A stretch of DNA of 45,427 nucleotides from a virus: positions 1-45,427 of the IMG/VR virus record IMGVR_UViG_3300035698_004868; one strand, given 5' to 3'. The notes beneath the pieces were generated by a model. It did not search any database. It was given only the letters and a program-made list of their open reading frames with translations, and was not told the DNA's origin. The first letter of the stretch is position 1. Every line of letters begins with the position of its first letter. The position numbers and the translations under genes were made by a program. This document shows, piece after piece, positions 13,493 to 45,427 of the stretch.

Positions 13493-16400
13493 TTGATTCC
13501 AGACATTCCCGAGGATCAAGTCCATCAATTAACTGGACTTGGCGAGATACTTTTTCCTGATCGATACGCAATACATCCAGAAGAAACCTGGAAAGAAGCA
13601 TGTGCTAGATGGGCGCGAGGAGGAGCAGCAGCAGAACATGGGGAGAATATTAGCAAATGGGAAAGCAGATTCTATACTGAATGTGTAACCAATAGGTTTA
13701 TCCCTGGTGGTAGAATCATGAGGAGCCTAGGACGCCCCCTACAAGCGACATCAAATTGTTTTGTTATTGGTCCAGATGATCTTGATTCAAGGGAAGGTTG
13801 GGGTCAAGCCACTAAAGAAGTTATTATTATTTCAGGTGAAGGTGGTGGTGTTGGCCTAAACGGTAGCACTATTCGACCACGAGGTTCAGCAGTAGGACGT
13901 ACAGGTGGTCTTGCCACTGGTGCTGTATCTCTATTTGAAATCTTGAATGCCGCTGCCGAGGTAATCCGTGGTGGCGGCGGTAGACGTGCTGCATTAATGG
14001 TCTGTCTTAACCACGACCATCCTGATCTAGAAGAGTTTCTGAATAAGAAACTTGATCTTAAAGAGCTAAAGAATGTTAATGCTTCTATTGGGTTTATGAA
14101 CGAAAGCATTGAAGGGTTCATCGAAAAGGTTAAAAACGATGAAGACTATGACTTGATTTGGCAAGATAAAATAATCAAGACTATAAAAGCCAGAGATGTT
14201 TGGGATACTATTATTCATAATAGCCTCAAGGTAGCAGAACCTGGCGTGTTAAATCTATATCTTATTAATGAGATGAACAACCTATACTATTGTCGTGAAA
14301 TCACCTGTACAAATCCATGCGTAACAGGAGATACTCGTGTAAGTACCGAACAAGGCCTTGTACAAATTAAAGATCTTGTTCGCCAACCTGCACCTATATA
14401 CACAATGGATAATGGAGATCCACGAAAATATAGAACCAAAAAGGTTATTATCGACCCACGTATGGGGCAAAGCACTCCACAAAAAATGGATAATTGTTTT
14501 GTATCTGGCGAAAAGCAGGTGTTCCGCCTTAAGACTAAGGAGGGGTACTCCCTTAAACTCACTGCTAACCACCGTGTAATGACAACGGAAGGTTGGAAAC
14601 AAACAGACGAACTTCACCTTGGAGATAAAATCCATATTCAAAACACAGTTGGTGGATTTGGATCTAAAGGACATTGGAATTTAGGAATAATTGCTGGATG
14701 GTTAACTGGCGACGGTTGTTTAGTTGGATGCCACAAAGATGTACCTCACTTAGACTTTTATCCACCAGACAAGGACGTATTCCCGATTCTACTTAAAGCG
14801 GTTGAAAATACTCTTGGAAAAAGTCCTGCATGGTATTTACCAACAAATGAAGAAGACTGGAAAAGATCTCGGAAAGCTCATATCCAAAGCGCGGCATTGC
14901 GAGAGCATCTAGGTGAACTTTGTCAACAAAAATTTAGAATCCCAGAGTTCATTTGGCAAGGCACCAGGGGCACACAACAGGGATATATTTCTGCTTTATT
15001 CAGTGCTGATGGTTCAGTCCAAGGGACAAAAACAAAAGGTTTCTCTGTACGTTTAGCATCTTCTCGTTTGAAACTATTAGAAGATGTGCAAAGGTTATTA
15101 CTAAACTTTAATATATTCTCCACAATTTATCCTGAAAGACGACCTGAAGGTTGGAGAAAATTACCTGATGGACACGGAGAATACAAGAGCTATTGGTGTA
15201 GGGCTGATCATGAACTAGTAATTTCTAGGGGAAGTATGGTTACATTTAAAGATGAAATCAAACTAATTCGAGAAGACAAACAGCAGCTATTAGAAAAAAA
15301 TATCTCTACATATACCAAAGGACCTTACTCTGAAAGTTTTACAGCTGAATTTATAGAACTAGAAGCCCTTGGTGTTGAGATAGTATTCGATTTGTCTGAG
15401 CCAGTAACACATTCATTTTGTGCTAATGGCCTAGTGGTTCATAATTGTGGAGAATTACCATTGTCTCCGTATTCTGCTTGTAACTTAAGCAATCTTGTAC
15501 TCCCACGATTTGTTAATAGAAACGGTACTGATCTACAGTGGGGCAAGTTAAACACTACTATCACTACCACAATACGTTTCCTAGACAATATGATTGACGT
15601 AGGGCATTATCCATTCGAAGAGATTCAAAAGGAGATGACCAATACACGTCGACTCGGAATGGGTGTGACTGGTCTTCATACAATGCTTTTACAACTAGGT
15701 ATGAAATATGATTCAGAAGAAGCTTATGCTTTTGTAGCAAAGATGATGAGGTTCATCAAGAATAAAGCTTACGAAGCAAGTATCTTTTTGGCTGTAGAGA
15801 AGGGACAATTCCCGCTACTAGACCGTGAACAATTCATCAAGTCTGGCTTCTGTAAAACACTTAAACCTTCTATCCGTGACAAGATACTAGAGTATGGCAT
15901 CAGAAACTGTGCCGTTATGACAGTACCACCACACGGGACCGGGGCATTAATCTGTAATGTTACCAGTGGTATCGAAGTTATGTTTGCGCCAGCTTGTACA
16001 CGTACATATCAAGACGGTGAAGAAACCAAGACCACCATTGTCTTTGATCCTATGGCAGAGATGCTTATGCAAGAAGGCAATGACTCTTCATTGTTACAAG
16101 GTGCTCTAGATGTACCACCTGAGAATCATATGAAAATGCAAGTCATCATTCAAGAACATGTTGACAACGCTATTTCTAAATGTTTGGCCAAGGGAACACT
16201 GATCCCAACATCGCAAGGACTAATTCCTATTGAAAAACTTGGAGAAGCAAATCAGCCAAACACTTTTGGAAAACCAATAGATAATTTATTTGTTATTGGC
16301 GAAGACAACAAGACACATCGTGTTACCAATCATTACTGTGCTGGTGTCAAATCTGGAAAAAAAGTTCGTCTTACTAACGGAACTTATCTTTCTGGAGCAG

Positions 16401-17569
16401 ACACTCACTTTATTATGACACTTAATACTAACGGAGAAAGAGAATGGAAGAGATTACAACATTTAAAGCAGGGAGACTTAGTTGAGTGTAAAAGGAACTT
16501 ATCAATAACCCCTCAAGGCAACCAAGCTTTATCCCCCAGACCAACATTACGAACTAATGCTAAGAGGTTTTCTGTTCCAAAATATATGAACGAAAAACTC
16601 GCTTTGTTACTTGGTATGCTTGCCGCAGATGGTTGTACTTTTAATGGACCTAATGGTGGACAAACAATACTTTCTGAAAAAAATGAAGTAGTAGGAAAGC
16701 TTTATGATTCTCTTTTCTTAGAATTATTTGGGAGTTTGCCACGTGTTATATTAGACAAAAGGACAGGAGTAAGGGGTCATGTTTATTCAAGCAGCGCCTT
16801 AAGTAGGTGGCTTCACCCGATGATAGGACAAGGAGCTGCTAATAAAAAAGTCCCTGAAACAATTCTTAAAGGAAGCCAAGGAGAAATAGAGAACTTCATT
16901 AAAGGAACAACATTAGACGGATACAAGCATCAAAACAAGCTTGTTATTTATGACGGGTATTCATTTCAATTAGCTAATGGGATTGCTTGTATGCTTTCTT
17001 CTCTTGGTTATATACCACGTCAAGGGGAAAAACTAGTTACTGGCGGTACGCAGGACAGGACATATTATGTCCAGATTGATTCGTTTAATTCAATTGAACA
17101 ACATAAAATAGCCACAGCACGAACAAGAGAACTAGTTCGCATACCAGAAGAGGTATATAATCTTAATCTACACACAAATCACCCAAGTTATAGTAGTTTA
17201 AGAAGTCTAAAACAGAGAATGCCTCTTGTTTGCTATGACCAGACACTAGATAATCTAGATATCCCTTACGATCCACATACTTGTTATGTAAAAATAAAAA
17301 GTATCGAAGATATAAAAAGTGAGATGTATGACATTACAGTAGCTGAAAACCATTCATATATTGTTAACAACATCGTATGTCATAACACGATTTGGCTACC
17401 CAAAGGCTACACAGAGAAACAACTCAGCGATCTTTTTATGAAATATTTACCACAAGTCAAAGGTGTGACCGTTTATACGACAGGTTCTAGACCAAATGAA
17501 CCATTGACTCCAATCCCATTCGAAGAAGCTTTGCAAATGGGATGCACTGGAGGGGCGTGTGAGATATAA
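13493..17569 (+). CDS. nrdJ: Class II (adenosylcobalamin-type) ribonucleotide reductase with two inteins
   Basis: Reduces ribonucleotides to deoxyribonucleotides. The 1358-residue precursor contains two inteins (residues 276-651 and 897-1298) that, once spliced, leave a 580-residue enzyme. Extein landmarks are TSNCFV (first redox Cys), GGGVGLN, a TNP-CGELPLSP junction with the catalytic Asn/Cys/Glu loop split by intein 1, GTGALICNVTSGIE, SKTIWLP split by intein 2, and a C-terminal CTGGACEI CxxxxC tail for re-reduction. The motif pattern and lack of a small-subunit gene fit class II NrdJ. No ATP-cone is seen at the N terminus, so activity regulation by ATP/dATP may be absent. Start TTG 13493 follows GGGGAG by 9 nt. 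Confidence 0.9.
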   Translation: MIPDIPEDQVHQLTGLGEILFPDRYAIHPEETWKEACARWARGGAAAEHGENISKWESRFYTECVTNRFIPGGRIMRSLGRPLQATSNCFVIGPDDLDSREGWGQATKEVIIISGEGGGVGLNGSTIRPRGSAVGRTGGLATGAVSLFEILNAAAEVIRGGGGRRAALMVCLNHDHPDLEEFLNKKLDLKELKNVNASIGFMNESIEGFIEKVKNDEDYDLIWQDKIIKTIKARDVWDTIIHNSLKVAEPGVLNLYLINEMNNLYYCREITCTNPCVTGDTRVSTEQGLVQIKDLVRQPAPIYTMDNGDPRKYRTKKVIIDPRMGQSTPQKMDNCFVSGEKQVFRLKTKEGYSLKLTANHRVMTTEGWKQTDELHLGDKIHIQNTVGGFGSKGHWNLGIIAGWLTGDGCLVGCHKDVPHLDFYPPDKDVFPILLKAVENTLGKSPAWYLPTNEEDWKRSRKAHIQSAALREHLGELCQQKFRIPEFIWQGTRGTQQGYISALFSADGSVQGTKTKGFSVRLASSRLKLLEDVQRLLLNFNIFSTIYPERRPEGWRKLPDGHGEYKSYWCRADHELVISRGSMVTFKDEIKLIREDKQQLLEKNISTYTKGPYSESFTAEFIELEALGVEIVFDLSEPVTHSFCANGLVVHNCGELPLSPYSACNLSNLVLPRFVNRNGTDLQWGKLNTTITTTIRFLDNMIDVGHYPFEEIQKEMTNTRRLGMGVTGLHTMLLQLGMKYDSEEAYAFVAKMMRFIKNKAYEASIFLAVEKGQFPLLDREQFIKSGFCKTLKPSIRDKILEYGIRNCAVMTVPPHGTGALICNVTSGIEVMFAPACTRTYQDGEETKTTIVFDPMAEMLMQEGNDSSLLQGALDVPPENHMKMQVIIQEHVDNAISKCLAKGTLIPTSQGLIPIEKLGEANQPNTFGKPIDNLFVIGEDNKTHRVTNHYCAGVKSGKKVRLTNGTYLSGADTHFIMTLNTNGEREWKRLQHLKQGDLVECKRNLSITPQGNQALSPRPTLRTNAKRFSVPKYMNEKLALLLGMLAADGCTFNGPNGGQTILSEKNEVVGKLYDSLFLELFGSLPRVILDKRTGVRGHVYSSSALSRWLHPMIGQGAANKKVPETILKGSQGEIENFIKGTTLDGYKHQNKLVIYDGYSFQLANGIACMLSSLGYIPRQGEKLVTGGTQDRTYYVQIDSFNSIEQHKIATARTRELVRIPEEVYNLNLHTNHPSYSSLRSLKQRMPLVCYDQTLDNLDIPYDPHTCYVKIKSIEDIKSEMYDITVAENHSYIVNNIVCHNTIWLPKGYTEKQLSDLFMKYLPQVKGVTVYTTGSRPNEPLTPIPFEEALQMGCTGGACEI
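14318..15445 (+). mobile_element. Intein 1 in ribonucleotide reductase (LAGLIDADG)
   Basis: A 376-residue intein. It starts with Cys (CVTGDTRVST, block A), has a TANHRVM block B, LAGLIDADG-type endonuclease motifs at IIAGWLTGDG and ALFSADG, and ends VVHN followed by extein Cys. It sits between Pro and Cys of the conserved NPCGELPL loop, so the unspliced enzyme would be inactive. Splicing residues (Cys1, block B Thr and His, C-terminal His-Asn, Cys+1) all appear intact. By eye the sequence is more A+T-rich than the exteins. Confidence 0.93.
16181..17386 (+). mobile_element. Intein 2 in ribonucleotide reductase (LAGLIDADG)
   Basis: A 402-residue intein beginning CLAKGTLIPT and ending NNIVCHN, with Thr as the +1 extein residue. 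It splits the conserved SKTIWLP segment between Lys and Thr. The block B equivalent contains GADTHFI. The first LAGLIDADG motif is LLLGMLAADG; the second (FIKGTTLDG) is degenerate-looking but keeps Asp-Gly. Terminal splicing residues look functional. It is A+T-rich by eye, like intein 1, but the two are not obviously close relatives. Confidence 0.92.
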
Positions 17570-29495: not shown

Positions 29496-30015
29496 GGATG
29501 GAGTAATGAACGAAGATACTGCCTATGCGCATGGCAGTCATCCCATCACCTTAGTTCCCGGCATCGTAGATATCTTTTTCTTCCTGAACCATAATCCTGT
29601 CTTCTTTCCTGTTGTCGTGAGCAATCAAAGTGGTATTGCACGTGGAATTTATACAGAAGAAGACTTCCAGAGATACACTCAGCGACTCTATAAGATCATC
29701 CAAGCTAAGTCGGGCTATAAGATGGATAATGTTCCTGCATATTTCTCACCTTCATATGACAAAAAGAGCTTTGATCTAAAACCGAATCCTGGTATGCTGC
29801 TTTCCGCCGCAAGGAAGTATGACATTCAACTACGAGAGTCATACATGATAGGTGATGGTTTTAGTGACGTTGAAGCAGGTTACAGAGCGGGGTGCAGGGG
29901 CTTTTTCCACAGGTCATGCGGCATGAATGTATTTGACCTATTCAGATGTATACCAGAGATCAAATACTTACTAGAAACATCAGGGAATATAATACAAGAG
30001 AAGGTACTTCATTGA
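29461..30015 (+). CDS. HAD phosphatase, GmhB-like
   Basis: HAD-superfamily phosphatase of the GmhB/HisB-N group, which in bacteria removes the C7 phosphate of heptose 1,7-bisphosphate. LDRDG at 10-14 (nucleophile Asp11, acid/base Asp13), SNQSG at 54-58, Lys107 in KPNPGM and GDGFSD at 131-136 are all present and in order. The Cys/His zinc loop of classic GmhB, expected between residues 93 and 107, is replaced by a loop without Cys. GTG 29461 is used; ATG 29470 is an alternative. The stop overlaps the TTG of the primase gene. Confidence 0.82.
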   Translation: MAQMKAALFLDRDGVMNEDTAYAHGSHPITLVPGIVDIFFFLNHNPVFFPVVVSNQSGIARGIYTEEDFQRYTQRLYKIIQAKSGYKMDNVPAYFSPSYDKKSFDLKPNPGMLLSAARKYDIQLRESYMIGDGFSDVEAGYRAGCRGFFHRSCGMNVFDLFRCIPEIKYLLETSGNIIQEKVLH

Positions 30016-33000
30016 AGATTGACAATTTAGATGATGTCGTGCAGCATCTTAAAGCACAGTTACCTAAGTATTTAGAGAAGCATGGTATAAATACTGCCAA
30101 ACGATTCGTATGTATTAACCCAGCCCATGAAGAAGACACCCCGTCTGCGATGCTTAACCCTAAAGCAGGGTATACACAGGGACATTGTTTTGGGTGTTTA
30201 CCTCCAGAACAAGAGGTACGTACTCCCCATGGCTTAAGAGCCATTAAAGATTTAGATACACAAGTACACAACTTAGTGTATATGGCTGATGGCTCAATTG
30301 GCAGAGTTATAAACCATGCTGGCAAGAAGGTAGATGAAGAGTTATATACTTTCGTTTTAGCCAATATGTGGCGTAATGATTTATCATTTACTGCTGAGCA
30401 TATAATGTTGGTAGTTCGTAATCCAGAAAATAACTTGAACTACTTGTGGAAACGCCCAAAAGGTGACGTGATTTATCATAAAGCCGCTAAAAGTCGTTCA
30501 AAAGCTATTAGCCATAAGTATCGAAAACCATTAAAAATTAAAGAAGTAAAAGCCAAAGATGTTTTGCCAGGAGACTATTTTCTTATGCCTCCTGTAGGAA
30601 ATAGTTTTGGTAAATTTGTTATTGACTTAGGTGTAGGCCAGGTTGAATTAACAGAAAATTTGATGTGGCTATTTGGTCTTTATTGTGCAGAGGGAAGTCT
30701 TTATCGTGGAGGGGTAGCATGGAACCTAGGCGCTCATGAGCCAGAGATTGCAGAAAAAGCACACTCAATTTTAACGATAGACCTAGGACTTAATGCTATT
30801 ATACATGATAGAAGTGATAGAGGATCACTGACTGTTACATGTTCATCAACAAAAATAAGTAAGGTTTTTGAACGACTATTTGGTAGAGGATCTGAAAACA
30901 AAACTGCTCCATATGCATTTTTTAGATGTGATTTATCTCTTCAAGAAGCATTTTTAAATGGAGTATTTGATGGAGATGCTGACTGTAATAACTATACGCT
31001 TACAGTAACTAGCAAGCATTTAGTAGACATATTGCAACAGATAGCAGTCAATTTGTCTAAGCCTATTAGTAGGTCATATACAGCGTCCCATGTTGCTAAT
31101 GATGGGATTTCACGCAAACAAACTTATACTTTGCGAATGCTTAAAAGACAATCAACAAAGTGTTTCTATGAAACTATTAGGGGTGTAAAATATTTACTCC
31201 AACGTGTTGATGACATACAAATTTCTGAACCATTAGATTTAGTATACGATATAACAGTCCAAGGAAAAACTACTGGTAGTTATCACAACACCTTTCTATG
31301 TAGAGATTATGCCGTCCATAACTGTGGTGTAGGGTTTGATATTTTTAACGCTGCCCATTGGTTAGAAGGACTTCCCGCCGAAGGAGCTGCCTGGATTACA
31401 GAGACCATCCCCGCACTAGCTGAGCAACTAGGTGTAAAGATAGATTATGTAGAGCCATCAGAAGATGAGAAGGAAAGACTAGCTGTCTATAGGGTTTACG
31501 CAGAGACGGCTAGCTATGTTTCATCAGAGAAAACCGGCAAGTGGTCTAAGGATACAGAAGACTATATCAGCGAGAATACCTGGGATAAACAGTTCTTATC
31601 TGCTGCAGGTGTTGGTGTATGTGATGAGAATGAATACATCCAACACATGATGGCCAAGGGCTATACTGTTGACTATCTAGTAGATGTCAAACTCATCCCG
31701 CCAAGAGGAACAACGTCTCATCATACTCCTAGTATCATTGCTGCTGACCAACTCGTCTTTACAATCACAGATGAACTAGGTAGACCATGTGCCTTTGCTG
31801 CCAGACGTTTCTCTGGTGAACGTAAGTTCGTGAACACAGGTAATACAGGCAAATATGATATCTATCAAAAGGGTAAGAGACTTTATAACCTGGACCATGC
31901 TAAGAGATCCGCGCGTACTGGGAAACCACTCTATCTTGTAGAGGGCTATGGTGATGTACTAAGCGCTCGTATGCGTTCTATTGAGAACATATCAGCTGCC
32001 TGTGGCACGTCTTTGACAGAGGAACAGCTTGAACTGCTGTCTCGTCTCGGCATCAATGATATTATTCTCCTATTCGACTTCGACAAGGCAGGTAGAGACA
32101 ACACAAAACGAGTTATTGAAACAATTCTACCTAAAGCCAGTGATATGCGCTGTCGTGTAGCAATCCCAGGAGATGGTGATGATGGCAAGGATCCCGGCCT
32201 ACTATTACACGAGAAGGGAGCGGAAGGTATCCTCTCGCTCAAAACGATTCCCGCGTTTAACTGGCTACTTGGGAGATACCTTTCTGAAGGTATTGATCAG
32301 ACAGACGTCGCTATTAGACTGGTTCCTGTCATTGCATCTGAACCAAATGCTGTTGTCAGAGACTCTCAGATCAATGCTTTGGTTGAAACAACGGGTGTCG
32401 CGAAATACGCAGTCGAAATCCAAGTTAGAAAACGAACAGAAGAGGCTGTGGCAGAAAGTGAACGCAAGCGACAGTTACTGATAACTACCTTTAAAAATGC
32501 ATTGGACAGTGACCCTAGTGCTGGTGTTCAGCTGTGCGAAGAATTTATGCTTAAGTTTGAGGACTTAGAAACTGAGTATGAATTAGATAGATACTCTCCT
32601 ACCTCTTCTCTCCATATGACAGAGAGACAAAGAGAGAAAGAATATTCTAAAGAAGCCAGCGATATTCATGGCTTCCATCTACCGTATATGAAAGACTTTG
32701 AAGACCATCTATCTGGTGGTCGAGATTGGTCTTACAGGACATTGATGATGGTGGGTGGAGAAGAGAATGTAGGGAAAACAAGCTGGATCCGGTGGCTGCT
32801 CTATAATATTGCATGTGTAAAAGAAAACAATGCTATATGTATCTACTGGTCTATTGATGACTCAGAAGAAGAGATCCTCCCAGGATTTGTAGCACTAGCT
32901 AATGTAGAACTCACTGGGTATATTCCTACCCTACCTCAGCATCCAGTACTAGATATTGGACATGTTGTCAACCCTAAACGTAGTGTCATAGGGTTGAATA

Positions 33001-33656
33001 AAGCTGCACAAGAAGCAATGTGGGCTCGACGTGACAAAGCCTATGAACGTGTCCTAGATTTGATGAGAAATGAAAGACTCATCATTAAAGATGCCAAGAG
33101 TGGAAATACTTTGTCATACGCCAAGGGTGTTGTGCGTCATTATCGTCGTAAGTATCCAGACAAGAAAATTGTATTAGTCATTGATAACACTCACAACCTA
33201 GGGGACCATAGCGATCTAAAAGAGATTCGTGACAGATACACACGTATTGCTGTCACAATGAAAAATGGCATCGTCAACAAATACGATTGTCTAGTTCTTG
33301 CTTCTGTAGAGTATAGGAAAAAGAGTGGATCTAACGAACCACTAGAGATTCAGTTGCCTAACAATGACAGGATTGCAGAAGCCAGAGCTTTCAAATACAT
33401 GGCCCAATGGATTGGTCATATGTATAGTGATATCACAGAGAGACCTACAAAATATACAGTGTTCTATCAAGATCCTGTTACAGGAGAACATAGACCACGG
33501 GTTATCATGCTTCATTCCAAGACCAAGATCAATAGGTGGAAGGGTGTACAATATATGGACTTCCATAGTGGATGCTCTGCGTTCGAAGAGGTCGGTTCAG
33601 ATAAGGCTAAGGTAGAACATGTCAAGTACTATGACAAGAAGAAAGAAGAAGAATGA
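30012..33656 (+). CDS. Primase-helicase (DnaG/T7 gp4-like) with an intein in the zinc finger
   Basis: Bifunctional replication protein that primes and unwinds DNA. Cys34, His39, Cys59 and the Cys after the intein (438) form the CHC2 zinc finger. The intein spans residues 62-437 and separates the last two ligands. A TOPRIM domain follows with LVEGYGD near 643 and LLFDFDKAG near 690. The C-terminal RecA-like helicase domain has Walker A GGEENVGKTS near 915 and a VLVIDNTHN Walker B region. TTG 30012 follows GAGAAGG by 7 nt and overlaps the phosphatase stop (TTGA). The spliced protein is about 838 residues. Confidence 0.92.
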   Translation: MKIDNLDDVVQHLKAQLPKYLEKHGINTAKRFVCINPAHEEDTPSAMLNPKAGYTQGHCFGCLPPEQEVRTPHGLRAIKDLDTQVHNLVYMADGSIGRVINHAGKKVDEELYTFVLANMWRNDLSFTAEHIMLVVRNPENNLNYLWKRPKGDVIYHKAAKSRSKAISHKYRKPLKIKEVKAKDVLPGDYFLMPPVGNSFGKFVIDLGVGQVELTENLMWLFGLYCAEGSLYRGGVAWNLGAHEPEIAEKAHSILTIDLGLNAIIHDRSDRGSLTVTCSSTKISKVFERLFGRGSENKTAPYAFFRCDLSLQEAFLNGVFDGDADCNNYTLTVTSKHLVDILQQIAVNLSKPISRSYTASHVANDGISRKQTYTLRMLKRQSTKCFYETIRGVKYLLQRVDDIQISEPLDLVYDITVQGKTTGSYHNTFLCRDYAVHNCGVGFDIFNAAHWLEGLPAEGAAWITETIPALAEQLGVKIDYVEPSEDEKERLAVYRVYAETASYVSSEKTGKWSKDTEDYISENTWDKQFLSAAGVGVCDENEYIQHMMAKGYTVDYLVDVKLIPPRGTTSHHTPSIIAADQLVFTITDELGRPCAFAARRFSGERKFVNTGNTGKYDIYQKGKRLYNLDHAKRSARTGKPLYLVEGYGDVLSARMRSIENISAACGTSLTEEQLELLSRLGINDIILLFDFDKAGRDNTKRVIETILPKASDMRCRVAIPGDGDDGKDPGLLLHEKGAEGILSLKTIPAFNWLLGRYLSEGIDQTDVAIRLVPVIASEPNAVVRDSQINALVETTGVAKYAVEIQVRKRTEEAVAESERKRQLLITTFKNALDSDPSAGVQLCEEFMLKFEDLETEYELDRYSPTSSLHMTERQREKEYSKEASDIHGFHLPYMKDFEDHLSGGRDWSYRTLMMVGGEENVGKTSWIRWLLYNIACVKENNAICIYWSIDDSEEEILPGFVALANVELTGYIPTLPQHPVLDIGHVVNPKRSVIGLNKAAQEAMWARRDKAYERVLDLMRNERLIIKDAKSGNTLSYAKGVVRHYRRKYPDKKIVLVIDNTHNLGDHSDLKEIRDRYTRIAVTMKNGIVNKYDCLVLASVEYRKKSGSNEPLEIQLPNNDRIAEARAFKYMAQWIGHMYSDITERPTKYTVFYQDPVTGEHRPRVIMLHSKTKINRWKGVQYMDFHSGCSAFEEVGSDKAKVEHVKYYDKKKEEE
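30195..31322 (+). mobile_element. Intein in the primase-helicase zinc finger (LAGLIDADG)
   Basis: A 376-residue intein. It begins CLPPEQEVRT and ends DYAVHN before extein Cys. FTAEHIM acts as block B. Endonuclease motifs are LFGLYCAEG and LNGVFDGDAD. It lies inside the CFGC part of the zinc-binding site, so the unspliced protein cannot form the finger. The interior is A+T-rich by eye. Cys1, His-Asn and Cys+1 are intact. Confidence 0.93.
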
Positions 33657-42529: not shown

Positions 42530-44659
42530 TTATAGACCACCATAGCGCTGGATGTCAGCCCACACCATCTCTTCCACTAGCTTATCAATGTCATAATTCC
42601 TTGACCAGCCTAGTTCTGCTTCAATCTTAGCAGGATTCCCTTTTAAATAAGGAACATCAGATGGCCTCATGAAACGGGGATCTTGCTTCACATATTGCTC
42701 ATAATCTGGTAGATTTGCGACAGTAAACGCTTTCTGTAAGAACTCACGAATTGAATATGACTCGCCCGTAGCTACTACATAATCCTTTGGCTCACTGTTA
42801 TTCATAATGAGCCATTGTGCCTCTACATAGTCTTCAGCATGACCCCAATCACGACAAGCATTAAGATTCCCAAGAGTGACAAAGTTAGAATTACCTATTG
42901 CAATCTGCGCAATAGCATCTGTAATCTTTCGTGTAACAAAATCCATTCCCCGCCTAGGAGAGTTAGCGATTACCATAGTTCCCACACCAGCCATGAACTT
43001 GCCTGAACCAGTCTCAATATCGTAAACAACATCAAACTCAGACTCCTCAATCTTCTTTACCTCAATAGGATCTCTACGAAGATGATGGACATCACAAGCA
43101 TGGCCTCCCCCGGCAATCTTGTTGATGAAGCCTCTAGAGATACCAGTCTCACGAGCAATAGTTCTCTTAGGCATGCCAATATCGAGAAGAGTTCTTACAA
43201 TACTCTCCTTCTCTGAATTATCTGTTGGAGACAAAAGATTCACAGAGTAATAGTTGCCATTTAAGCCAGTCTCGTAGGTCACATTGAACTCTTGGCCAGT
43301 CACATTGGAAACAAGCAGAAGCAATCCCTGAGCCAGCTGGGAACTATTGGTCTTGAAATTCTTATACCTGTAGGTACAAGGATTAGACTTCAGACCATCG
43401 GCCATATTGTAGCCATTCAAGAAAGCCTCTTGTATCTCGACAGAAGCATTAAGAATCTGCTTAGGAACCTTCTTGTAACGGTCTTTATTGTAGAGATCGT
43501 CACGAAGGGTCTTATGCCATGGCCACTTTGCAACTCCATTTAGTCCAGTATGTCTGGAAAGACCACCATATCCAGATTCATATTCTTTTCCAACAGACAC
43601 ACCTTGTCCAGAAATAGCCAACCATAGGCTTTCAATGCGAGAGATAACTAATGGATCTATATTAGAAATGTGTACATCATTGTGTTTGGCAGAGACCCAT
43701 CCATCTCCAGCGATTAGACCAAGAAGCTCAGCTTCTTCTAGAGAGATGCCTTCCTGAATATCAGTAGGCTTCGGATACTTACCATCCAGGACACGAGAGC
43801 CAATCCTAAACTCATCGGCACGATACTTCTCTCCTTCATGATCAATTAGTTTATGGTGTCGAGTAGTCTCAACTATACCAATACGAGCATTAGTTATTTG
43901 ACCTCGGTGGTCCAGATTATCAGGATTGACCTTGCGCACAGTAATCGTCTTAAGATCTACCCACTGAGTACCATCCCAGATATCTAGTGTAGAAACAGCT
44001 GTTCTCTCTTTCTTACCATAAAGTCCAAGGAGATCTTTCGCACGCACAATATTGATCTGATCATCAATACGCGATTTCACTAGTAAATTCGTGTACTTAG
44101 AGACACACTCGTGGTTGAACAGTATTCCCTGGCAAGCAAAGATGCCGTATGACTCTCGATAGAGTCGAATGTATCGATAGGCTGCTTCCTTAGCGATAGC
44201 ATAAGGGCTACGAGGATCCAGCGGAGATTCTTCATTATATCCTTCCTCCGGACAATGCAACCCACCAAACAACTCTGATGTACTAGCTTGATAAAACTTA
44301 GTATCCTTCGATACCTTTCTAATAGCCTCTAGTGGGTATAGTGCTCCAAGTCCCGTAACCTGCATAGACTGACAGGGTTGGGAAAAACTCTGCCCGACAT
44401 GTGACATAGCAGCCAAGTTATAATACTCGTCAGGAGTATAGTCTATCATCAACCTATAGATGAATGCCGGATCTGTGATGTCTCCATCAATCACCTTAAA
44501 GCTCTTGTCGCCAAGCAATGGCAGAATAAGCTTCCTACCTTCAGGCTCTACTCTCCTACGGTCAACACCAATAACAAAGTAATCCTTCTCTAGTAATAGT
44601 TCTGCTAGATAAGACCCGTCTTGACCCGCTACCCCTGTAATGATAGCAACTTTTTGCAT
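42530..44659 (-). CDS. gmd: GDP-mannose 4,6-dehydratase with an intein
   Basis: Converts GDP-mannose to GDP-4-keto-6-deoxymannose. The short-chain dehydrogenase NAD(P) loop TGVAGQDG is at 8-15, the STSELFG motif near 126 and the catalytic YxxxK at Tyr153/Lys157. FNHE and SPRRG, adjacent in normal Gmd, are separated by an intein (residues 185-566). After splicing 327 residues remain, close to normal length. The ATG overlaps the stop of the Wzt-like gene (TAATG). With the DegT aminotransferase upstream, the product is probably turned into GDP-perosamine or a related amino sugar for a glycan. Confidence 0.93.
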   Translation of the reverse strand: MQKVAIITGVAGQDGSYLAELLLEKDYFVIGVDRRRVEPEGRKLILPLLGDKSFKVIDGDITDPAFIYRLMIDYTPDEYYNLAAMSHVGQSFSQPCQSMQVTGLGALYPLEAIRKVSKDTKFYQASTSELFGGLHCPEEGYNEESPLDPRSPYAIAKEAAYRYIRLYRESYGIFACQGILFNHECVSKYTNLLVKSRIDDQINIVRAKDLLGLYGKKERTAVSTLDIWDGTQWVDLKTITVRKVNPDNLDHRGQITNARIGIVETTRHHKLIDHEGEKYRADEFRIGSRVLDGKYPKPTDIQEGISLEEAELLGLIAGDGWVSAKHNDVHISNIDPLVISRIESLWLAISGQGVSVGKEYESGYGGLSRHTGLNGVAKWPWHKTLRDDLYNKDRYKKVPKQILNASVEIQEAFLNGYNMADGLKSNPCTYRYKNFKTNSSQLAQGLLLLVSNVTGQEFNVTYETGLNGNYYSVNLLSPTDNSEKESIVRTLLDIGMPKRTIARETGISRGFINKIAGGGHACDVHHLRRDPIEVKKIEESEFDVVYDIETGSGKFMAGVGTMVIANSPRRGMDFVTRKITDAIAQIAIGNSNFVTLGNLNACRDWGHAEDYVEAQWLIMNNSEPKDYVVATGESYSIREFLQKAFTVANLPDYEQYVKQDPRFMRPSDVPYLKGNPAKIEAELGWSRNYDIDKLVEEMVWADIQRYGGL
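42962..44107 (-). mobile_element. Atypical intein in GDP-mannose 4,6-dehydratase
   Basis: A 382-residue intein starting CVSKYTNLLVK and ending MVIAN before extein Ser. ETTRHHKLI is block B; ELLGLIAGDG and NMADG are the LAGLIDADG motifs. The residue before the last Asn is Ala rather than the usual His. A helix-turn-helix-like segment (RTIARETGISRGFINKI) lies near the C-terminal end, after the endonuclease. Unlike the other inteins, its composition looks like that of the host gene. Confidence 0.9.
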
Positions 44660-45093
44660 TACTCTTCCTCTTGCTCTGAGGACTTATAAAGATCAGTGGT
44701 GAATTTAGGAGTTTCAACCTCAATAGACTTTTCAACCGCAGGGGCAGATGGCCTGAGAACAATATCACACTTGTCAGTGTACCAACACTTGAACTCCTGA
44801 ACCACTCCATAAGACAAAGTGTATTCGCCCTCTCCATCAATATCTAATAGATCTTTTGCATCCACTTGAATCTTCAACTTAACAATCTCTCCCGGCATGA
44901 TAGATCTTAACTGTTCTGACCGACCAAACAGAGGGTCAGAGAAAGTAACATCATCTACCATAACTGACTTGGGACGAACAAACACTCCATGTCCAGTAGA
45001 AGACTCTAGTTTCTTCTTACCATTATTGGTAACCTCTAGGTTAATATAAAACTTGTCCTTACGCTTAAAACTCTTTCCGGTGATAGTAAACAT
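44659..45093 (-). CDS. Wzt-like beta-sandwich protein
   Basis: 144 residues, all-beta in appearance. VTNNGKKKL, an IMPGEIVKLKIQV strand and GEYTLSYGVVQEFKCWY near 96-112 follow the pattern (Pro-Gly-x, then Tyr-x-Leu, Val-Gln-Glu and Trp-Phe/Tyr) of the sugar-binding C-terminal domain of Wzt and related domains in polysaccharide gene clusters. The last 30 residues are charged and disordered. It may bind the glycan or modifying enzymes. ATG 45093 overlaps the aminotransferase stop (TAATG). Confidence 0.6.
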   Translation of the reverse strand: MFTITGKSFKRKDKFYINLEVTNNGKKKLESSTGHGVFVRPKSVMVDDVTFSDPLFGRSEQLRSIMPGEIVKLKIQVDAKDLLDIDGEGEYTLSYGVVQEFKCWYTDKCDIVLRPSAPAVEKSIEVETPKFTTDLYKSSEQEEE

Positions 45094-45427
45094 TATTCTT
45101 GACTCCAATCTAATACAGTTTTGATGACATATTTAACTTCCTTATCTGTCATGGTGGGGAAGATAGGCAAAGTGAGATGACAAGACAGATAACCTTCTAG
45201 TTTTTCAAACCCTGGTGTACGAAAACCTTGTTGCTGTGAAATAGCCATAGGATAATGTCGTGCATTGGCAATCTCATGGTCCTTTAAGTACTGAGACAAA
45301 GCATCTCGTTCCGATGGAGTGTTAAGATAGATAGGATAGAGGTGGTAAACACAGTCATTTAGAGGATCTAATACAGTAACCCAATCATTGTTCTCAAAAG
45401 CCCTGGTGTACATTGCACCAATCTCTC
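45093..45427 (-). CDS. 3' part of a DegT/DnrJ/EryC1 aminotransferase (partial)
   Basis: C-terminal end of a PLP-dependent sugar aminotransferase running off the window; the frame stays open to the last base. VYHLYPIYL, SERDALSQYL, HYPMAI and LTLPIFPTMTDKEVKYV are the usual C-terminal landmarks of this family. Next to gmd, a perosamine synthase-like role (amination of GDP-4-keto-6-deoxymannose) is the most economical reading. The pyridoxal Lys lies outside the window. Confidence 0.85.
   Translation of the reverse strand, partial: EIGAMYTRAFENNDWVTVLDPLNDCVYHLYPIYLNTPSERDALSQYLKDHEIANARHYPMAISQQQGFRTPGFEKLEGYLSCHLTLPIFPTMTDKEVKYVIKTVLDWSQE

Follow-up and report, generated by a model that had tools for sequence, protein, structure and literature searches.

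A predicted bifunctional class 1 intein with a helix-turn-helix element at a recurrent insertion site of the GDP-mannose 4,6-dehydratase gene in a phage fragment

The window analyzed was a 45,427-nucleotide virus fragment that spanned an entire IMG/VR record (IMGVR_UViG_3300035698_004868). Its gmd gene (GDP-mannose 4,6-dehydratase, GMD; 42530..44659, minus strand) encoded a 709-aa precursor with the organization N-extein–intein–C-extein (all minus strand): (i) an N-extein corresponding to GMD residues 1-184 and ending in ILFNHE (44108..44659), as delimited by PF16363 and 1rpn alignments, (ii) a 382-aa insert running from CVSKYTN to VIAN (42962..44107; precursor Cys185 to Asn566), and (iii) a C-extein of precursor residues 567-709 that began with SPRRG, its Ser being residue +1 (42530..42961). 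Pfam and NCBIfam recognized GMD in two separate stretches with a LAGLIDADG domain between them, and phmmer against the PDB aligned the solved GMDs 1rpn and 2z1m to residues 1-185 and 567-706 only. 1rpn read FNHE-SPLRG straight across the junction with zero residues lost or gained; because the solved GMDs were continuous across E184-S567, the insert was delimited as residues 185-566 (42962-44107), and its removal restored a continuous host GMD alignment with 327 aa of extein, so that the in-frame insertion was exact. The segment 42962-44107 is best read as an intein of a phage gmd, located between FNHE and SPRRG; the initial annotation of this DNA had proposed an intein with these very boundaries, splitting the conserved NHE/SPRRG motif, and was borne out on both points.

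The insert harbored all class 1 splicing residues (Cys1, T82, H85, D363, Asn382, and Ser+1), distributed across conserved blocks on the minus strand: block A CVSKYTNLLVKS with the nucleophile Cys1, assigned by alignment (44072..44107), block B NARIGIVETTRHHKLI with T82xxH85 (43844..43891), and blocks F and G VYDIETGSGKFMAGVGTMVIAN with Asp363, Ala381, and Asn382 (42962..43027). In the family alignment, H85, D363, and N382 were invariant, and T82 was nearly so. Class 2 inteins have Ala at position 1, and class 3 inteins have no nucleophile at position 1 and carry a WCT motif plus a block F Cys; both classes were ruled out, as Cys1 was present and Asp363 occupied the class 3 Cys position. Block G read VIAN followed by SPRRG, confirming the earlier remark that the penultimate residue was Ala (Ala381), the usual (non-essential) penultimate His being missing. 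Block F read SGKFMAG and contained no His, with Gly and Met at places where other inteins may have His. The start CVSKYTN, previously described as atypical, was odd solely in having Asn for the usual Pro; the rest was ordinary, and the oddity was common to the intein of another phage, L182 (CLSKYTNLLVK).

A LAGLIDADG (DOD) endonuclease was recognized from two helices, each with a terminal catalytic Asp: motif 1, EAELLGLIAGDG (43700..43735, minus strand; PF14528; helix 123-135), with the nearly invariant Asp135, and motif 2, EAFLNGYNMADG (43394..43429, minus strand; helix 223-236), with the invariant Asp237. A helix-turn-helix (HTH)-like segment had been noted after the endonuclease, and such an accessory element was indeed located at residues 298-332 (43112..43216, minus strand), formed by three helices in the AlphaFold model (298-309, 314-321, and 325-332) and matched weakly by Pfam HTH models in five of six members of the clade described below; shorter gmd inteins lacked the element in the alignment. 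The model, computed with 20 family members as additional input, had a mean pLDDT of 90.2 and contained a Hint beta-fold made from both ends together with the two LAGLIDADG helices. The best Foldseek matches in the PDB were TliVMA (7qsu and 7qss), PhoVMA (7qst), PI-TkoII (2cw7), and PI-PfuI (1dq3), with E values of 4e-21 to 1e-15, and PI-SceI was also matched. HTH-like accessory domains have been described for two of these top folds, the archaeal inteins TliVMA and PI-TkoII (PMC8966425), which share with the window intein the combination Hint plus LAGLIDADG plus HTH-like domain but reside in V-ATPase subunit A and DNA polymerase, respectively, and are 14-19% identical to it. Among viral models, the whole intein matched the 791-aa GMD of Pithovirus LCPAC304 best by fold (A0A481Z7I5; 30% identity, TMq 0.83); this giant virus, which infects eukaryotes, thus has an intein in gmd as judged from the fold comparison.

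Relatives were sought with the junction motif GILFNHE followed by Cys (N-extein end plus Cys1) in two sets, viral contigs and a prokaryote set with one genome per species. The scan retrieved 12 stretches from viral contigs and 82 from prokaryote genomes, and 69 had a full insert at exactly the same gmd site with both junctions in view; insert lengths were mostly about 323-402 aa. Many other matches among the 82 genome stretches were cut by contig ends, and four of the 82 (L134, L158, L169, and L173) looked like chance matches. Since the scan catches only Cys1 inteins with a matching GILFNHE N-extein, at one gmd site, these counts are lower bounds. Record names placed the hosts in no fewer than 11 bacterial and archaeal phyla, including Cyanobacteriota, Chloroflexota, Actinomycetota, Myxococcota, Planctomycetota, Pseudomonadota, Thermodesulfobacteriota, Minisyncoccota, Woesearchaeota, and Thermoplasmatota. 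Scans of the viral contigs with the whole precursor or the single intein sequence gave zero matches, because peptide patterns derived from one divergent sequence were too strict; the GILFNHE-Cys motif and alignment A1 succeeded where these scans failed. When cultured phages were searched with the intein by tblastn, just one weak C-terminal match emerged (E 2e-3).

An alignment of HTH-bearing members, used as query, detected 11 viral loci (one being the L082 contig again), all gmd-like ORFs, with an SPxRG-type junction in 10 of the 11; the remaining one, L186, had the junction N/STCRG (STCRG after the intein instead of SPRRG) in an ORF with a 579-aa N-terminal part. Seven HTH-bearing phage gmd inteins (L185, L186, L187, L188, L189, L190, and L192) had Thr at position 1 and a penultimate His; to our knowledge, Thr1 as the first nucleophile has rarely been described. 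The same-site intein in gmd of an Anaerolineae MAG (L116) measured just 246 aa, and part of its endonuclease was possibly lost.

The window intein occupied the same FNHE/SPxRG site as these inteins and had common ancestry with them, and it is a further member of a known gmd-site family, not a one-off. The earlier view of gmd as an unusual intein host does not hold against 69 full same-site inserts from one scan and a published precedent, a type II gmd intein reported from Thermosynechococcus (PMC9403480). The cyanobacterial gmd inteins (PMC9403480; L146 and L157) were like the window intein in gmd host, class 1 residues, and LAGLIDADG endonuclease, and L146 and L157 lay at the same FNHE/SPRRG site, the passages of PMC9403480 naming the gene and not the exact site. 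L146 and L157 differed from the window intein in length (341-343 aa), in ending with WIHN (penultimate His), in a block F reading FHAG, and in having no HTH, with about 25% identity. Closer counterparts were found in phages (L182, L183, and L082), Woesearchaeota (L111), Pacearchaeota (L120), and Patescibacteria (L137 and L153): these inteins of 380-391 aa shared the window's site, the HTH, and a penultimate Ala, Ser, or Gly, but their gmd exteins were scattered over the gmd tree. In the open literature, searches found no paper on Patescibacteria inteins and nothing relevant for intein combined with GDP-mannose.

The intein and extein phylogenies that were compared were fast maximum-likelihood reconstructions, with branch support from SH-aLRT alone; the intein tree was built without the penultimate residue and without the HTH columns. 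The window intein was sister to that of L182 (SH-aLRT 97), followed by L183 (99), within a nine-member HTH clade (98) drawn from the window, L182, L183, the virus L082, Woesearchaeota, Pacearchaeota, and Patescibacteria; every member carried the HTH, and its terminal Asn was preceded by Ala, Ser, or Gly. The window and L182 were 61% identical in their inteins versus 49% in their gmd exteins, and an extein clade uniting the two was rejected (AU p=2.1e-6), as was a single extein clade of the nine hosts (AU p=2.7e-4); the extein tree has long branches, which make exact positions uncertain but leave the single-clade rejection unaffected. Among the hosts of this clade, the L182 extein was nearest to the Patescibacteria exteins (65%). 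The window and L183 adjoined in both trees, and some intein-bearing viral gmd genes adjoined intein-free ones in the extein tree, e.g., L187 with L033 and L038. Because the two trees conflict, the intein must move between gmd genes: the conflict requires horizontal movement, and homing or another form of horizontal transfer would predict such a pattern. Intein-free gmd alleles, a search for which was suggested in the initial annotation, were common and carried an uninterrupted NHE-S at the same site. None of those found exceeded 53% identity, so that recent homing is undocumented for this phage.

The composition of the intein matched that of the host gene, as had been stated (GC 42.6 versus 43.6%; GC3 37.4 versus 38.1%), but the long residence deduced from it was not supported. 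Across 78 gmd inteins, intein and host GC3 correlated at r=0.97; composition was therefore rejected as a residence clock, since the inteins of the family all match their hosts, and the trees show horizontal movement.

The penultimate residue was other than His in 13 of 79 family members. None of these 13 had a substitute His at position F+1, directly after the block F Phe, and compensation at that position was thus not seen. On the family intein tree, the penultimate state changed at least four times, so that non-His residues are recurrent, and the HTH label changed twice. Both the HTH of the window intein and its lack of a penultimate His are inherited traits, common to the clade of phages, DPANN archaea, and Patescibacteria. 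Class 1 inteins of mycobacteriophages, e.g., the RDF intein of Bethlehem (gp51), can likewise lack the penultimate His, and one with a penultimate Gly splices completely, whereas G to H replacement slows it (PMC5050341); it differs in host protein and in having Gly, not Ala, and splicing was shown there, the window intein being known from sequence. Given the splice-competent Gly intein and the 13 natural non-His members, the Ala-Asn end is not supported as a sign of a special mechanism peculiar to this intein. Ala381 in place of the helper His, with no compensating block F His, could nevertheless make splicing slow or conditional.

Taken as a whole, the insert is very probably a bifunctional class 1 intein at the shared FNHE/SPxRG gmd site, combining a LAGLIDADG homing endonuclease with an HTH DNA-binding accessory element; its splicing, its cleavage and homing, and the role of its HTH are predicted from sequence, fold, and relatives. 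After translation, Cys1 would attack the E184 carbonyl, the N-extein would be transferred to Ser+1, and cyclization of Asn382 would release the intact 327-aa GMD. The endonuclease, aided by the HTH, which may add DNA contacts during homing, would cleave gmd alleles that lack the intein, acting at the same conserved coding site, and repair would copy the intein into the cut allele. That the insert is instead a normal, permanent domain of a gmd subfamily, an objection already raised in the initial annotation, can be dismissed with near certainty: an insert widespread at one gmd site might be expected of such a domain, but a Hint fold with splicing motifs at both exact junctions, the many gmd genes that lack the intein and run unbroken through the site, and the disagreement of insert and host trees all exclude it.

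Two other readings concern activity. A splicing-dead or slow intein, leaving an unspliced or conditional precursor and gmd regulated or inactive, is unlikely: Ala381, the His-free SGKFMAG, and the absence of any simple His substitution in all 13 non-His inteins point that way, but the non-His state was stable across phages, Woesearchaeota, Pacearchaeota, and Patescibacteria with the other splicing residues kept and the gmd exteins intact, loss of splicing would cost the phage or cell a conserved enzyme, and the phage intein with penultimate Gly reaches complete splicing, at a rate that G to H lowers (PMC5050341). Somewhat less improbable, though still doubtful, is an endonuclease that is now inactive in an intein merely inherited vertically within the phage lineage, which would fit the host-like composition and the neighboring positions of the window and L183 in both trees; against it stand the retention of both LAGLIDADG Asp residues and the HTH, the location of the nearest intein (L182) in a gmd that is only distantly related (AU p=2.1e-6), and the universality of the composition match in the family. 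As an extension of the preferred reading of an active, mobile class 1 intein, it may tentatively be speculated that the HTH-bearing inteins in gmd of phages, DPANN archaea, and Patescibacteria are one mobile family that is carried between domains by viruses, includes the Thr1 phage branch, cyclizes Asn without the block F/G helper His, and splices at a rate adapted to the life of a phage or symbiont.

These results turn gmd from an apparent oddity into a gene outside DNA metabolism that repeatedly hosts inteins, with a single insertion site occupied in phages and in no fewer than 11 phyla of prokaryotes and with evidence of intein travel independent of the gene. They also provide a natural series at one site, with penultimate His, Ala, Ser, or Gly, first residue Cys or Thr, and HTH present or absent, well suited to tests of how far splicing can do without its helper residues and of what the HTH contributes to homing.

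Upstream of gmd (44659-45425, minus strand), the window contained a 149-aa ORF with no family match and the C-terminal part of a DegT/DnrJ/EryC1/StrS aminotransferase gene cut by the contig end (45093..45425, minus strand; PF01041, E 1.5e-10); together with gmd, the aminotransferase end suggests a GDP-sugar (perosamine-like) cassette truncated by the contig end. Three further inteins were observed elsewhere in the window: two in an NrdA-type ribonucleotide reductase ORF (13493-17569), namely a 376-aa intein at NP/CGE (14318-15445, plus strand) and a 402-aa intein at ISK/T (16181-17386, plus strand), and a 376-aa intein at HCFG/CGVG within a zinc-binding motif (30195-31322, plus strand) of a primase/helicase-like ORF (29946-33656). 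With that in gmd, the 45-kb fragment thus carried four inteins.
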